Positions 55,094 to 60,758 of a DNA stretch of 64,000 nucleotides are shown piece by piece. This DNA is from an uncultured Spirochaetaceae bacterium (lineage in GTDB: Bacteria; Spirochaetota; Spirochaetia; Sphaerochaetales; Sphaerochaetaceae), in contig CALXKU010000003.1 of assembly GCA_944389025.1 (NCBI GenBank), forward strand, positions 62,001-126,000, given 5' to 3'. The notes under the pieces are model-generated. The model was not told the origin of the DNA. It was given only the letters and a program-made list of their open reading frames with translations, and ran no database searches. The translations under genes and the position numbers were made by a program. Each line of letters opens with the position of its first letter. Position 1 is the stretch's first letter.

Positions 55094-55735
55094 TTATTCC
55101 TTGACCTTCTTAGGATACTGTATCTCGTAGAAGATCTGTTCCAGCTCAAGTGCGATGTTTATGTTGTGAACAACTGGGCGCAGCACTCCATCCACATTCT
55201 GGCTCTTGAGTGTAACTGGTGAGAAGTTTAGCACTCCTTTGATATTAGCGTCAATCAGTTTCTGGAAGCAGTCCGCCGCGGCATTTTCTGGAACGGTTAT
55301 TATCGCGATTTTCACATCAAGCGCTTCTATGACCTCTTCCAGCCTGCTCATAGGATAGAGCGGTATCGGGTGCGATGCGTCCGAATATACAAGAGGATCA
55401 GTATCGAAGCCAGCGACGATCCTTATCCCGTCGGGCTCGAATCCCGAGTAGTGCATCAGGGCCTTTCCTATTCTTCCGCAGCCTACGATTATCACATTCT
55501 GAGGTTCCCCTTTGCCCAGCAGTTCGCCAAGTTTGTTGACCAGTGGCAGTATGTCATAGCCTCCTCTTTTCTGGCCATGAATCCCAAGCAGGGAGAAATC
55601 TTTTCTTACTATTACGGCGTTCACTCCGGCTGCATCCGCCAGATTATGTGCGAACACTTTCTCTAAACCGATTGCCCTCAGCCTATTAAGTGCCCTGTAA
55701 TATCTTGTAATTCTGGTAAGCATGTCACTATTCAT
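55094..55735 (-). CDS. rex: Redox-sensing transcriptional repressor Rex
   Basis: A 213-residue Rex. N-terminal winged helix (RYYRALNRLRAIGLEKVFAHN, GVNAVIVRKDFSLLGIHGQKRGGYDI) and Rossmann domain (NVIIVGCGRIGKALMHYSGF) that binds NADH. It represses fermentation and hydrogenase genes until NADH/NAD is high. Divergent from the hydrogenase operon; the gap contains the probable operator 55752-55769. The gene is followed by tRNA-Ala after one base. Confidence 0.94.
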   Translation of the reverse strand: MNSDMLTRITRYYRALNRLRAIGLEKVFAHNLADAAGVNAVIVRKDFSLLGIHGQKRGGYDILPLVNKLGELLGKGEPQNVIIVGCGRIGKALMHYSGFEPDGIRIVAGFDTDPLVYSDASHPIPLYPMSRLEEVIEALDVKIAIITVPENAAADCFQKLIDANIKGVLNFSPVTLKSQNVDGVLRPVVHNINIALELEQIFYEIQYPKKVKE

Positions 55736-55900: not shown

Positions 55901-56365
55901 ATGTCTCAGAATTTATTTTCTGAAGAATTGAATGCTTTCGTTGACGAATGGAAGGATAAGCCGGGTAATCTCATCATGGTTCTTCATCGTGTGCAGCAGG
56001 AGATAGGGTATATTTCCAGAGAGGCTGCTGATGAGGTTTCCAGGCGTCTCAATATTCCTCTGGCAAAGATCTGGGGAGTTGTCACGTTCTATCATTTCTT
56101 CAAACTTAATAAGCCGGGTAAGTACAATATCCAGGTCTGTTTGGGAACCGCATGCTATCTTAAGGGGGGAGATATCATAATCGAGGAACTTGGGAAGCAG
56201 AAGGGCCTGAATGTCGGAGGGCTCACGGAGGATGGAAAGTTCTCCCTTGAGGCCGTCAGATGTGTTGGCTGTTGCGGTCTGGCTCCTGTAATGACTATTG
56301 CAGGAGAGGTTTTCGGAAAGGTCACTAAGGACCAGGTGGCTGGAATTCTGGATAAGTTTTCCTGA
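55901..56365 (+). CDS. hydC: Bifurcating hydrogenase [2Fe-2S] subunit (NuoE/HydC type)
   Basis: A 154-residue NuoE-type protein. VQQEIGYISREAADEVSRRL and IWGVVTFYHFF are the thioredoxin-like N-terminal helices; CLGTAC and CVGCC hold the four cysteine ligands of the [2Fe-2S] cluster. In bifurcating hydrogenases this subunit (HydC) passes electrons between NADH and ferredoxin sides. First gene of a five-gene operon; stop overlaps the next ATG by one base. Confidence 0.9.
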   Translation: MSQNLFSEELNAFVDEWKDKPGNLIMVLHRVQQEIGYISREAADEVSRRLNIPLAKIWGVVTFYHFFKLNKPGKYNIQVCLGTACYLKGGDIIIEELGKQKGLNVGGLTEDGKFSLEAVRCVGCCGLAPVMTIAGEVFGKVTKDQVAGILDKFS

Positions 56366-56826
56366 TGGATGATGAGGACCTCATCCTGGAAGGGCTCAAG
56401 AACAGTCTGGAAGCGGGTGCCTCTGCGATAGATATCTATGTTGATGGATGTGGTTTTTCTATCGTGGATGATGGCAGGATGGATACTCTTCCTGCTTTCA
56501 GAGAAGGCTTTTCTTCCAAGGGGGAGAGAAGAGGGAGAGGACTCTATCTTCTTAGTGAGGTCACAGGAGGTAGGTGCGGCATAAAGAGAGAGAAGGAAAG
56601 GACTTGTCTTAGCGGGACGTTCTCCCATCGGATTGCGGTGGAAAAGGTCATACCTTACTGCTTCAATCTTTTCCCAGAGCTTGTTTTTCATAGGCTTGAG
56701 AGGGGCAGGGAGATTTATGTTCTCTCTGGTGCGATGCTGGAATCACGCGGTATCGATGTCCATCTTATCTCCGGTTTGGCACACCTTAAAAGGATTATCA
56801 GAGAAAAGGAACAGAGGAGTTTATAA
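56365..56826 (+). CDS. ATP-binding protein (histidine kinase-like ATPase fold) of the hydrogenase operon
   Basis: A 153-residue GHKL-type protein with no kinase phosphoacceptor. The N-box is LEGLKNSLEAGASAI and the lid/G2 region GERRGRGLYLLSEVTGG, with DGCGFSIVDDG as G1. Such small ATPase-like proteins lie in HydC-HydB-HydA operons of spirochaetes and Clostridia and their role is unknown. Possibly an assembly or regulatory factor. It overlaps hydC by one base and is 2 bp from the next gene. Confidence 0.7.
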   Translation: MDDEDLILEGLKNSLEAGASAIDIYVDGCGFSIVDDGRMDTLPAFREGFSSKGERRGRGLYLLSEVTGGRCGIKREKERTCLSGTFSHRIAVEKVIPYCFNLFPELVFHRLERGREIYVLSGAMLESRGIDVHLISGLAHLKRIIREKEQRSL

Positions 56827-56828
56827 AA

Positions 56829-57194
56829 ATGGCAAAGCTTACAGTTGAAGATCTTCATAGCATCAGGGCTCGTGAAGAGGTCAAGATGAAGAAGCGTGAC
56901 ATTGAGGGCAGAAAAAGGCATGTCGTTGTGGCGATGGGTACGAGTGGTATTGAGAATGGTGCGAAGATCATTCTTGATGAGCTTGTGGATCTTGCTGAGA
57001 AGAAAGGGCTTGATGATGTCATCGTAACGCAGTCTGGAGCTATCGAGGGTGTGAAGGAGCCGGCAATTCAGATTCATACTCCGGACCTCGGGCTTGTTAC
57101 CTATGCTGCTGTAAAAAAGAGCGATGTGGAAAGGATTCTTGATGAGACCGTAGTTGGCGGAAAGGTCATAAAGGACCTTCAGGCAGAGGCTTAA
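56829..57194 (+). CDS. Thioredoxin-like ferredoxin-family protein of the hydrogenase operon, cysteine-free
   Basis: A 121-residue HndB/NuoF-N-terminal-like protein. HVVVAMGTSGIENGAKIILDEL and DVIVTQSGAIEGVKEPAIQIH align with the [2Fe-2S] ferredoxin fold, where the four ligands normally lie in VCxGTxC and TGCxxxC positions. Here Ser, Ala and Val occupy these places and there is no Cys anywhere. The protein therefore cannot hold the expected cluster. It keeps its place between the ATP-binding gene and hydB; it may be structural. Confidence 0.7.
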   Translation: MAKLTVEDLHSIRAREEVKMKKRDIEGRKRHVVVAMGTSGIENGAKIILDELVDLAEKKGLDDVIVTQSGAIEGVKEPAIQIHTPDLGLVTYAAVKKSDVERILDETVVGGKVIKDLQAEA

Positions 57195-57210: not shown

Positions 57211-58998
57211 ATGGCATTTAAGAACTATATCCTGGTCTGCGGGGGAACGGCATGTGAGTCCTCCAAATCCGACCAGATATATAAGAATCTCGTCGAGGAG
57301 GCTAAGAATCAGGGAGTTGCGGACCAGGTACAGGTCGTAAAGACAGGATGTTTCGGTTTCTGCGAGCAGGGTCCGATTGTCAAGGTCCTTCCTGAGGACA
57401 GCTTCTATGTCCAGGTAAAGCCTGAGGACGCTAAGGAAATAATAAGCGAGCATGTGATAAAAGGACGTGAGGTAACGAGGCTTCAGTATGGCCATCAGGT
57501 TAGAAAGGCATACGAGGAGGTCGAGGACATCCAGTTCTATAAGAAGCAGAAGAGGGTAGTCCTTCGCAACTGCGGAAAGATCGATCCAGAGAACATCGAT
57601 GAATATATCGCATGTGATGGATATAAGGCGCTTGAGAAGGCCCTTTTCGAGATGAGTGAGGATGATATCATCAACGAACTCAAGGTGGCGGGCCTCCGTG
57701 GCCGCGGTGGTGCCGGCTTCCCTACATGGATGAAGTGGAACTTCACCAAGCAGGCGGAAGGGGACGTGAAATACGTCGTATGTAATGCTGATGAGGGGGA
57801 TCCGGGAGCTTATATGGACCGCTCTACACTTGAAGGGGATCCTCATTCCGTGCTTGAGGCCATGACGATCTGCGGTAAGGCTATCGGGGCTCATCAGGGA
57901 TTCATCTATATCAGGGCTGAGTATCCTCTTGCAATTCATCGCCTTGAGGTTGCTATGAAGCAGTCCAGAGAGTATGGACTTCTTGGAAAGAACATTCTCG
58001 GGAGCGGATTTGATTATGATATCGAGATCCGTCTCGGAGCCGGTGCGTTCGTCTGCGGTGAGGAGACCGCGCTTCTGCAGTCCATTGAAGGGCACAGAGG
58101 TATGCCTCAGCCGCGTCCACCATTCCCTGCTGTAAAGGGACTCTGGGGTAAGCCGACTGTAATCAACAACGTTGAGACCTGGGCTAACATCCCTGCAATC
58201 ATCGTCCGCGGAGGCGAGTGGTTCGCATCAATCGGAACTGCTGACAGCCATGGAACGAAAGTATTCGCTCTCACCGGTAAGATCTGCAATTCAGGCCTTG
58301 TAGAGGTTCCGATGGGAACGACACTCAGGGAAATCGTTTTCGATATCGGTGGAGGAATCGCACATGGTAAGAAGTTCAAGGCGGTTCAGACAGGAGGTCC
58401 TTCAGGTGGTGTAATCACCGAGGAGAATCTCGATACTCCAATCGATTTCGGTTCCCTCATGAAGATCGGTTCGATGATGGGATCTGGAGGCATGATCGTA
58501 ATGGATGAGGATGACTGTATCGTCGATGTTGCCAAGTTCTATCTCGATTTTACTGTCGATGAGTCATGTGGAAAATGCGCACCATGCAGAATCGGAGGAA
58601 AGACGCTTAACGGACTTCTTGGAAAGATTACCGAGGGCAAGGCAACAGACGAGGATGTTGCTCAGATGCGCCAGATCGCACTTGCCATGCAGAAGGGCAG
58701 TCTCTGCGCTCTTGGACAGACTGCACCGAACCCCGTTCTCTCTACTCTCAAGTACTTCCCAGAGGAGTATGAGGCTCACATACGTGACAAGAAGTGCCCA
58801 TCAGGAAAATGTAAGAAGCTTATTTCTTACTCAATCGATCCGACAAAGTGCATAGGATGTACCGCATGTGCGAGAAAGTGTCCTGTCGGTGCGATTTCCG
58901 GAGAGCTTAAGAAGCCGCATAGCATCAATACCCAGGTATGTATCAAGTGTGGCGTATGTAAGGAAACCTGTAAGTTTTCTGCTATCAGCGTGAAGTAA
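57211..58998 (+). CDS. hydB: Bifurcating hydrogenase flavoprotein subunit (NuoF/HydB type)
   Basis: A 595-residue NuoF-type subunit. Thioredoxin-like [2Fe-2S] N-terminus with Cys 10, 15, 47 and 51; GLRGRGGAGFPTWMKW and CNADEGDPGAYMDR for NADH/FMN binding; SLBB region; CGKCAPCRIGG for the [4Fe-4S] cluster; and two C-terminal ferredoxin motifs (CIGCTACARKCP, CIKCGVCKETC). It oxidises or reduces NADH and is the bifurcating site. Stop overlaps the next start region (TAATG). Confidence 0.94.
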   Translation: MAFKNYILVCGGTACESSKSDQIYKNLVEEAKNQGVADQVQVVKTGCFGFCEQGPIVKVLPEDSFYVQVKPEDAKEIISEHVIKGREVTRLQYGHQVRKAYEEVEDIQFYKKQKRVVLRNCGKIDPENIDEYIACDGYKALEKALFEMSEDDIINELKVAGLRGRGGAGFPTWMKWNFTKQAEGDVKYVVCNADEGDPGAYMDRSTLEGDPHSVLEAMTICGKAIGAHQGFIYIRAEYPLAIHRLEVAMKQSREYGLLGKNILGSGFDYDIEIRLGAGAFVCGEETALLQSIEGHRGMPQPRPPFPAVKGLWGKPTVINNVETWANIPAIIVRGGEWFASIGTADSHGTKVFALTGKICNSGLVEVPMGTTLREIVFDIGGGIAHGKKFKAVQTGGPSGGVITEENLDTPIDFGSLMKIGSMMGSGGMIVMDEDDCIVDVAKFYLDFTVDESCGKCAPCRIGGKTLNGLLGKITEGKATDEDVAQMRQIALAMQKGSLCALGQTAPNPVLSTLKYFPEEYEAHIRDKKCPSGKCKKLISYSIDPTKCIGCTACARKCPVGAISGELKKPHSINTQVCIKCGVCKETCKFSAISVK

Positions 58999-59012
58999 TG
59001 GGGGAGAAGAAG

Positions 59013-60758
59013 ATGAAGATTCATTTAACCATAAACGGTATTCCAGTAGAGGTTGAGGCAGGAACGAGCGTGCTGGAAGCGGCACGCCAGGCCGGAGTCA
59101 GGATTCCTACTCTCTGCTATCATCCTGATTTAAAGCCTTTCGGCTCATGTGGACTCTGTGTCTGCAAGCAGGAAGGGTCTGCGAAGATTCTCAGGGCATG
59201 TGCAACGCCATGTGCGGAGGGGATGAAGATTATCACCCACGACTCTGAGCTCTATGAGGTTCGAAAGACCATAATCGAGCTTACGATGAGTACCCATCCG
59301 ACATCATGTCTCACATGTGTTAGGAACAATAAGTGTGAGCTTCAGAAGCTCGCCATTGAATATGGTATCCGCGAGCAGCCTTTCAAGCCAAGGCTGAGGG
59401 ATAGGGTTGTCGATGATTCGACACATATCATCACCCTTGATCCATACAAGTGTATCAAATGTGGTCGCTGCGTACAGGTCTGCCAGGAACTTCAGGGAGT
59501 CTATGCTCTTGAGTTCATCGGAAGAGGTGATTCCACAACGATGAGCCCCGCTGCAAACCTTCCTCTCAACCAGAGCCCGTGTATCAAATGCGGTCAGTGC
59601 ATAACACACTGCCCTGTTGGTGCCATCTATGAGCAGGATGATGTCAGCCTGATGATGAAAGCGATCAGCGATCCAGATAAGATTGTCGCTGTCCAGATGG
59701 CCCCGTCCGTACGTGTCGCAATAGGCGAGGAATTCGGTATGGAGCCTGGTGAGATTACGACAGGAAAGCTTTACACCGCACTCAGAAGACTTGGAATCGA
59801 TTATGTCTTCGATACCAATTTCGGTGCCGACCTTACCATCATGGAGGAGGCTAGCGAGCTGGTGGAGAGAATCAAGGATGGAGGAGTTCTTCCTCAGTTC
59901 ACATCCTGTTGCCCTGGCTGGGTGAACTATGTCGAGGAATACTATCCTGAGCTACTTGATAACCTTTCAACTGCCAAGAGCCCGATGATGATGCAGGGTG
60001 CTATCACCAAGACTTACTGGGCTAAGAAGATAGGGGTGGATCCTGCGAAGATCTACTCTGTGGCAATCATGCCGTGTACCGCTAAAAAGGACGAAATCAG
60101 AAGGCCTATGAACGCATCCGATTACAAGGATGTGGATGTCGTTCTCACCACAAGAGAACTTGGAAGGATCATCAGCCAGTATGGAATCGACTTCAAGAAT
60201 CTTGAGGAGAGCGAGGTTGATAGCCCGATTGGCGAATATACGGGAGCCGCTACCATCTTCGGTGTCACAGGTGGCGTAATGGAAGCCGCTGTACGCTCAG
60301 CATATAAGTTTGTTACGGGAAGTGAGCTTGAGAATGTCGAGGTCTCTCCTGTGCGCGGTATGCAGGAGGTCAAGAAGGGTACTGTCGATTTCAACGGTAC
60401 TCCGGTGCGTGTCGCGGTCGTACATGGAATGGCAAACGCCAAGGAGATTCTTGAAGAGGTTAAAGAGGCCAAGCTCAAGGGCGAGAGGGCTCCTTATGAG
60501 TTCATCGAGATCATGGCCTGCCGTGGAGGCTGTATCGCTGGTGGTGGACAGCCTATCGGAACCGATGACGAGGTTAGGGCAAAGAGGACCAAGGGCCTTT
60601 ACAGCGATGATGAGAAATGCACTCTCCGCCGCAGCCATGAGAACCCATCAATCATCAAGCTCTATGATGACTTCCTTGAAAAGCCTCTAAGCCATAAGGC
60701 ACATGAGACGCTTCATACGTCATATAAGCCGCAGAAGGTTTATAAGGACGAAGAGTAA
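59013..60758 (+). CDS. hydA: [FeFe] hydrogenase catalytic subunit (HydA)
   Basis: A 581-residue multi-cluster [FeFe] hydrogenase. N-terminal [2Fe-2S] domain (Cys 35, 46, 49, 63), His/Cys [4Fe-4S] (HPTSCLTCVRNNKC), two [4Fe-4S] ferredoxin motifs (CIKCGRCVQVC, CIKCGQCITHCP), then the H-cluster signatures TSCCPGW, MPCTAKKDE and EIMACRGGCIAGGGQP. With HydB and HydC it forms the electron-bifurcating enzyme that makes H2 from NADH and reduced ferredoxin. The ATG at 59013 has GGGGAG upstream; an earlier ATG overlaps the hydB stop. HydEFG maturases are not in the window. Confidence 0.95.
   Translation: MKIHLTINGIPVEVEAGTSVLEAARQAGVRIPTLCYHPDLKPFGSCGLCVCKQEGSAKILRACATPCAEGMKIITHDSELYEVRKTIIELTMSTHPTSCLTCVRNNKCELQKLAIEYGIREQPFKPRLRDRVVDDSTHIITLDPYKCIKCGRCVQVCQELQGVYALEFIGRGDSTTMSPAANLPLNQSPCIKCGQCITHCPVGAIYEQDDVSLMMKAISDPDKIVAVQMAPSVRVAIGEEFGMEPGEITTGKLYTALRRLGIDYVFDTNFGADLTIMEEASELVERIKDGGVLPQFTSCCPGWVNYVEEYYPELLDNLSTAKSPMMMQGAITKTYWAKKIGVDPAKIYSVAIMPCTAKKDEIRRPMNASDYKDVDVVLTTRELGRIISQYGIDFKNLEESEVDSPIGEYTGAATIFGVTGGVMEAAVRSAYKFVTGSELENVEVSPVRGMQEVKKGTVDFNGTPVRVAVVHGMANAKEILEEVKEAKLKGERAPYEFIEIMACRGGCIAGGGQPIGTDDEVRAKRTKGLYSDDEKCTLRRSHENPSIIKLYDDFLEKPLSHKAHETLHTSYKPQKVYKDEE

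Follow-up and report, generated by a model that had tools for sequence, protein, structure and literature searches.

A cysteine-free HndB/HydD-type subunit in a spirochaete hyd operon and an apparently repeated loss of a three-cysteine site among its relatives

Introduction

The role of the fourth subunit of bifurcating hydrogenases is unsettled, and the literature is divided as to whether it holds a cluster. In the group A3 [FeFe]-hydrogenase Hnd of Solidesulfovibrio fructosivorans the fourth small subunit, HndB, is described as probably free of redox centres (PMC10084766), and for HydD of Acetobacterium woodii the absence of any cofactor is predicted (PMC6288185). In contrast, the prediction for HydD of Caldanaerobacter is one Fe-S cluster (PMC4694547). 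The latter protein co-purifies with its partners, as it was identified in a purified complex of 325 kDa which was taken as (HydABCD)2 (PMC4694547). A gene named hydD is also found in the NiFe operon of A. mobile, where a role in maturation or regulation was presumed for it; its product is absent from the holoenzyme (PMC8880783, PMC9304861); it is likened to the other genes by name only.

The N-terminal domains of the B subunits form the second group of described relatives. Two of the four ligand cysteines at the N-terminus of StnB are replaced by glycine, and in Hnd the N-terminal [2Fe-2S] cluster is absent from HndC (PMC7483475). A single [2Fe2S] cluster, B2, located ~15 Å from FMN, is reported for StnB along with a zinc in the C-terminal linker (PMC10482914). 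For the B subunit of NiFe-Bfu two [2Fe-2S] clusters are described, B2 (with ligands numbered 438–536) and B5 (PMC9304861); in our reading B5 is the one belonging to the N-terminal domain. We infer from the single reported cluster and from the residue numbers of B2 in the related enzyme that the N-terminal domain of StnB is empty.

Here we describe a subunit of this kind encoded in a stretch of 64,000 nucleotides of spirochaete DNA (the window), the source genome of which is 2.3 Mb in size and 97.6% complete.

Results and Discussion

Genomic context

The gene was said in the first-pass annotation to stand at the place where HndB/HydD is expected, and this proved correct: it lies between hydC (with the following HATPase-like ORF) and hydB of a hydABC operon, in the order hydC, HATPase, hydD, hydB, hydA, all on the + strand. 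The features are as follows.

55094..55735, − strand: Rex redox repressor, divergent from the hyd operon
55901..56365, + strand: hydC, NuoE-like (PF01257), with the ligand cysteine motifs CLGTAC and CVGCC
56365..56826, + strand: HATPase/histidine-kinase-like ORF, weak profile matches only, no clear family
56829..57194, + strand: HndB/HydD-type subunit, 121 aa, no Cys, predicted thioredoxin-like ferredoxin fold
57211..58998, + strand: hydB, NuoF-like, with its own N-terminal thioredoxin-like domain (CGGTAC and GCFGFC)
58998..60758, + strand: hydA, [FeFe] hydrogenase, with the H-cluster motifs TSCCPGW, MPCTAKKDE and MACRGGC

The HndB/HydD-type ORF starts with ATG, 2 bases after the end of the HATPase-like ORF, and is separated from hydB by 16 bases. 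HydA scores over the NF040763 cut-off, and together with its H-cluster motifs and the partners HydB and HydC this identifies the enzyme as an NAD-dependent [FeFe]-hydrogenase of the HydABC type, which belongs to group A6 by its NCBIfam name and to group A3 in published papers. Judging by their motifs, hydA, hydB and hydC look intact. The divergently transcribed Rex is a likely regulator of the operon.

The same gene order, hydC-tte0891-hydD-hydB-hydA, is reported for Caldanaerobacter (PMC4694547), where tte0891 takes the place of the HATPase-like ORF of the window. A hisK gene likewise lies within the NiFe operon of A. mobile (PMC8880783). As extra small Hyd subunits, HydD of Caldanaerobacter and of A. 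woodii resemble the window subunit, and so does HndB, which in the group A3 enzyme Hnd is the fourth small subunit; all three are likened by description, not by comparison of sequences. The cofactor predictions for the two HydD proteins differ (none in A. woodii, an Fe-S cluster in Caldanaerobacter).

Fold and the positions of the missing cysteines

The structure was modelled with AlphaFold2 from an alignment of 16 same-genus sequences including the window protein. The model, with a mean pLDDT of 79 (56–60 for the first 30 residues), has the fold of thioredoxin-like [2Fe-2S] ferredoxins, so that the earlier statement that the fold is kept stands for the predicted structure. Its best matches, which can show relatives but cannot exclude a family, are ferredoxins of this type and the N-terminal domains of HydB/StnB/NfnB (Foldseek E from 1e-6 to 5e-5; Z ~13–16), with VIA-align Z of 15.9 to 9bp5_B and of 15.8 to 5abr_A and 1m2a_B. 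The ferredoxins of Aquifex (1m2a) and Azotobacter (FeSI, 5abr) share the fold at Z 15.8; unlike the window subunit, which has no cysteine ligand, they are free cluster-holding proteins. The N-terminal domains of the B subunits of Stn and NfnABC (8oh5, 9n5u, 9bov) also share the fold and carry the three-cysteine motif of the HndB relatives; they differ from the window subunit in being fused to a NuoF-like core and in keeping the cysteines. In profile searches with the window subunit no Pfam family scored over its cut-off, PF01257 gave no match at E up to 1, and the only NCBIfam match was NF041612, which scored 18.9 bits where its cut-off is 150.

The 121-residue protein contains no Cys at all, as first noted, and thus none of the four ligands of a thioredoxin-like [2Fe-2S] ferredoxin. 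When it is aligned pairwise with the N-terminal domain of its own HydB, all four HydB cysteines face other residues. The parts of the subunit discussed below are the following (all on the + strand).

56829..56912, + strand: N-terminal extension, residues 1–28 (predicted helix 6–23, lower confidence), with similar conservation in proteins with and without the three cysteines
56937..56951, + strand: loop 1, residues 37–41, GTSGI (GTCGI in the family), Ser39 in place of Cys
57036..57056, + strand: loop 2, residues 70–76, GAIEGVK (GCxGxC in the family), both cysteines absent and the loop shorter by one residue
57057..57062, + strand: Glu77-Pro78, conserved

Without cysteines the subunit is unable to hold a Cys-ligated [2Fe-2S] cluster or to perform thiol chemistry. 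The absence of Cys as such is unremarkable, since at the Cys frequency of the window (1.48%) a protein of 121 residues would have none with a probability of 0.16. It is the fate of particular conserved positions in the family that calls for attention.

The three-cysteine site among homologues

A match to the subunit was found in 31 of 40 related genomes (20 of 23 from the same genus). Across the phylum, 203 of the 392 genomes gave a match when HydB N-terminal domains were counted too. The census draws on 30 loci and 100 further listed matches from the phylum, which are part of all matches, as well as on 8 loci from named genomes and 2 plasmid records, one of which is the only representative of Clostridia. 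A search of viral contigs with alignment yielded no relatives from 101 stretches. ORFs longer than 300 aa (except L137, L162, L163 and L168), domains below 25 bits and the HydB N-terminal domain L041 were left out; the best 15 of 156 long ORFs were looked at, and two of the long ORFs, L169 and L177, were excluded by length although they have the HndB-type motif with three cysteines. Two HydB N-terminal domains, L137_207 and L092_2411, were removed after alignment and before the counting.

Among the 157 distinct homologues all three cysteines of the motif MGTCG...GCxGxC are present in 111 and none of them in 46; no homologue has one or two. The family norm is MGTCGIAAGA ... GCMGLC..EP, and compared with the canonical CxGTxC ... 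GCxGxC we read its first Cys as displaced by one residue. The first-pass annotation had described the ligand cysteines as changed. The cysteines of the relatives are indeed all absent; however, the relatives have three of them and not the canonical four. Of the 46 homologues without the site, 38 have no Cys and 8 have a single one elsewhere, so complete freedom from Cys is not general among them. The parts of the literature consulted nowhere state this motif as a defining feature of HndB/HydD.

In the window's genus the site is missing from 29 of 29 sequences, while 13 of 13 rows from five further genera of its family (g18, g19, g21, g22, g25) have it. An assembly error is unlikely, as two named MAGs, 92% and 91% identical, encode Cys-free proteins and all 29 distinct sequences of the genus are alike. 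The idea that the family never had cysteines is rejected by the 111 homologues which carry them. Moreover, all 7 rows from outside the phylum (L019–L023, L178, L179) and each of three aligned StnB/NfnB-type domains have three cysteines, which makes this the likely ancestral state, although the tree itself is unrooted. Among the outside rows, L021–L023 come from Desulfobacterium/Desulfobacteraceae MAGs and, unlike the window subunit, keep the three cysteines; no hydB was found adjoining them, so they are perhaps not hydrogenase subunits. For 153 of the 157 homologues a HydB-type ORF was found in the same orientation (five of these ORFs are fused to the HndB domain), the Parabacteroides relative is found in an annotated [FeFe]-hydrogenase operon, and in two Nitrospirae MAGs the relative stands beside hydB.

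The tree of homologues was built without the three cysteine columns. On it the state of the site changes at least five times, three of the changes being forced by starred branches; these counts are approximate because of the few columns, the long branches and the quick method. The groups without the site are the window's genus (29 of 29 rows), L160/L165, L094/L115/L117/L123/L130, L044 and nine rows of families f8, f12, f21, f24 and f27. The replacements are, for example, S-A-G and S-S-P in the window's genus and S-E-S or S-S-D elsewhere; such differences between groups fit independent events. The loss is thus clade-wide in the genus and recurs in other groups of the phylum, and a conserved three-cysteine site seems to have been lost repeatedly, each time as a whole, in spirochaetes. 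No account of repeated loss was found in the consulted parts of the papers or in the titles and the beginnings of abstracts of the HndB/HydD papers listed; the repeated all-or-none loss appears to be new. A cofactor-less subunit has already been suggested in print.

What the three cysteines do in the relatives may be explained in several ways. It is conceivable, if somewhat doubtful, that they form a single unit which has not been described before and is distinct from the four-Cys [2Fe-2S] site, and that spirochaetes lost this unit in its entirety on no fewer than three occasions, probably five. If so, the subunit persists without a cofactor and its structural job is separated from a redox or sensing job. 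According to the second explanation, the relatives hold a true [2Fe-2S] cluster on the three cysteines and one other ligand, so that the clade of the window has lost a redox centre and its electron wiring has changed. The all-or-none pattern suggests one site, a cluster is predicted for Caldanaerobacter HydD (PMC4694547), and the Parabacteroides relative is annotated as "(2Fe-2S) ferredoxin domain-containing protein". On the other hand, one Cys is displaced from its canonical place, the N-terminal domain of StnB has the same displaced motif and, with B2 alone reported, is apparently empty, and a redox centre is described as probably lacking in HndB; altogether a lost redox centre is rather unlikely. 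For the same reasons the statement that a [2Fe-2S] subunit is expected at this place of the operon can be kept only in part: it agrees with the prediction for Caldanaerobacter and disagrees with the displaced Cys and with the cofactor-less view of HndB and of A. woodii HydD. As to a family that never carried a cluster, which the first-pass annotation had named as its refutation, the evidence points both ways.

Similarly unlikely is a metal (zinc-like) or disulfide/thiol site which tunes the subunit and was dispensed with in some spirochaetes. The concerted loss of the three cysteines, the single [2Fe2S] cluster in the published account of StnB and the replacement of Cys by Ser/Asp or Ser/Glu in some of the groups are in line with it; the zinc of StnB, however, sits in the C-terminal linker, and the consulted part of that account mentions no metal at the N-terminal domain. 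Neither the redox-centre loss nor the metal/thiol site would conflict with the window protein having a structural role.

Selective constraint and the probable role of the subunit

It had been concluded earlier that the gene has not decayed, and we agree: dN/dS among the five nearest genes is 0.03–0.09 (9 of 10 pairs; dS is saturated, and in the tenth pair it is undefined). Judging by these values, the subunit is under purifying selection without the three cysteines. In the window's genus mean identity is 0.81 in the N-terminal helix, 0.95 in loop 1 and 0.98 in Glu-Pro. Loop 2 falls to 0.57, whereas those genera of the family that have the cysteines show 0.86; all other regions are within 0.1 of these genera or more conserved, with the largest drop in the C-terminal helix (0.61 versus 0.70), the two sets being unequal in size (29 and 13 rows).

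At the same time the proteins without the site evolve faster. The rate of HndB relative to the HydB core, compared as medians in bins of core distance over pairs which are not independent, is 1.4–2.7 times higher without the cysteines than with them. For core distances of 0.03–0.08 it is 4.95 in the window's genus and 8.59 in other Cys-lacking pairs (only 4) against 3.19 in Cys-bearing ones; for 0.08–0.15, 5.95 and 6.62 against 3.19; for 0.15–0.25, 3.24 (only 5 pairs) and 4.25 against 2.36; and for 0.25–0.4, 3.39 without the cysteines against 2.19 with them. The control, the rate of the HydB N-terminal domain, gave 0.72–1.99 versus 1.41–1.72.

Faster evolution could mean that the protein is on its way out, and the gene a decaying remnant. 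A match is also absent from 3 of 23 genomes of the genus (drafts, 76–93% complete). Nevertheless, there is no internal stop in any of the 20 same-genus matches, dN/dS is low, the scaffold is conserved and the spacing in the operon is tight, which makes decay highly improbable. The subunit is not universal and is optional: apart from these drafts, a match is absent from three genomes of the same family (G311, G347, G418) which do have a HydA match (E < 1e-214).

Most probably, the window subunit is a fourth, accessory part of HydABC of the HydD/HndB type, kept for structural or assembly purposes, with the electrons bypassing it. Retention for a structural or regulatory task had been proposed before, and the structural half is the best reading. 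The predicted thioredoxin-like ferredoxin fold of the subunit is homologous to HydB's N-terminal domain and is preceded by an extra helix; the subunit may dock on the complex via conserved surfaces, namely this helix, the MGTxG loop and Glu-Pro. The search by sequence found no structure, isolated or complexed, of HydD/HndB as a free subunit, and for this reason docking is given here as a proposal. Electrons would pass through HydA, HydB and HydC, which retain their ligand motifs, while the three-cysteine site of the relatives would be an optional extra. Related versions with and without the cysteines in one family offer natural pairs for testing what the cysteines do and whether the enzyme needs them.

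Relation to the N-terminal domain of HydB

At all 46 loci where HndB lacks the site, a motif search finds the four-Cys motif in the N-terminal domain of HydB. By alignment the number is 45 of 46: L015 did not align over the domain, and in L116 and L015, which were misaligned, the motif was seen by the motif search. The reverse is also found. In L164, L166, L167, L170 and L172 the HydB N-terminal domain has lost cluster ligands and HndB has three cysteines; L118 has lost one ligand of this domain, and in L173–L175 the domain is absent. No locus was seen to lack both the ligands in HydB and the cysteines in HndB, but this pattern is only a hint, as the reverse losses may represent one or two events. 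In L162, L163, L168, L176 and L045 a NuoF-type protein carries the HndB-type domain at its N-terminal end, an arrangement also found in StnB/NfnB.

Maturases

Profiles for HydE, HydF and HydG find none over the cut-off in the genome of the window; given its completeness of 97.6%, a gap in the assembly is possible for this genome taken alone. None was found over the cut-off either in 6 further genomes tested within the genus or in 9 tested genomes of other genera of the family, four of which are single-contig and 98–100% complete. We found no literature on maturase loss in Sphaerochaeta or spirochaetes. Since the three genes were not found over the cut-off, it is unsure whether the complex works as an active hydrogenase. 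Five tested genomes of the window's genus carry all three maturase genes in a cluster, and a scan for HydG found it in 7 of 16 genomes of the genus. A tie between the loss of the three cysteines and that of the maturases was considered and rejected: HydG is present in these 7 of 16 genomes of the Cys-lacking genus, and no HydE, HydF or HydG scored over the cut-off in seven genomes from sister genera which carry the cysteines (G260, G283, G294, G338, G354, G386, G414).

The H-cluster motifs are retained in HydA of the window's genome and of G354, G386 and G414, which are complete genomes (L200 and L201 were not counted in this check). Second HydA-like genes are present in G386, G354, G414 and G260 (L193, L194, L197 and L199), and these are without TSCCP and MACxxGC as searched.
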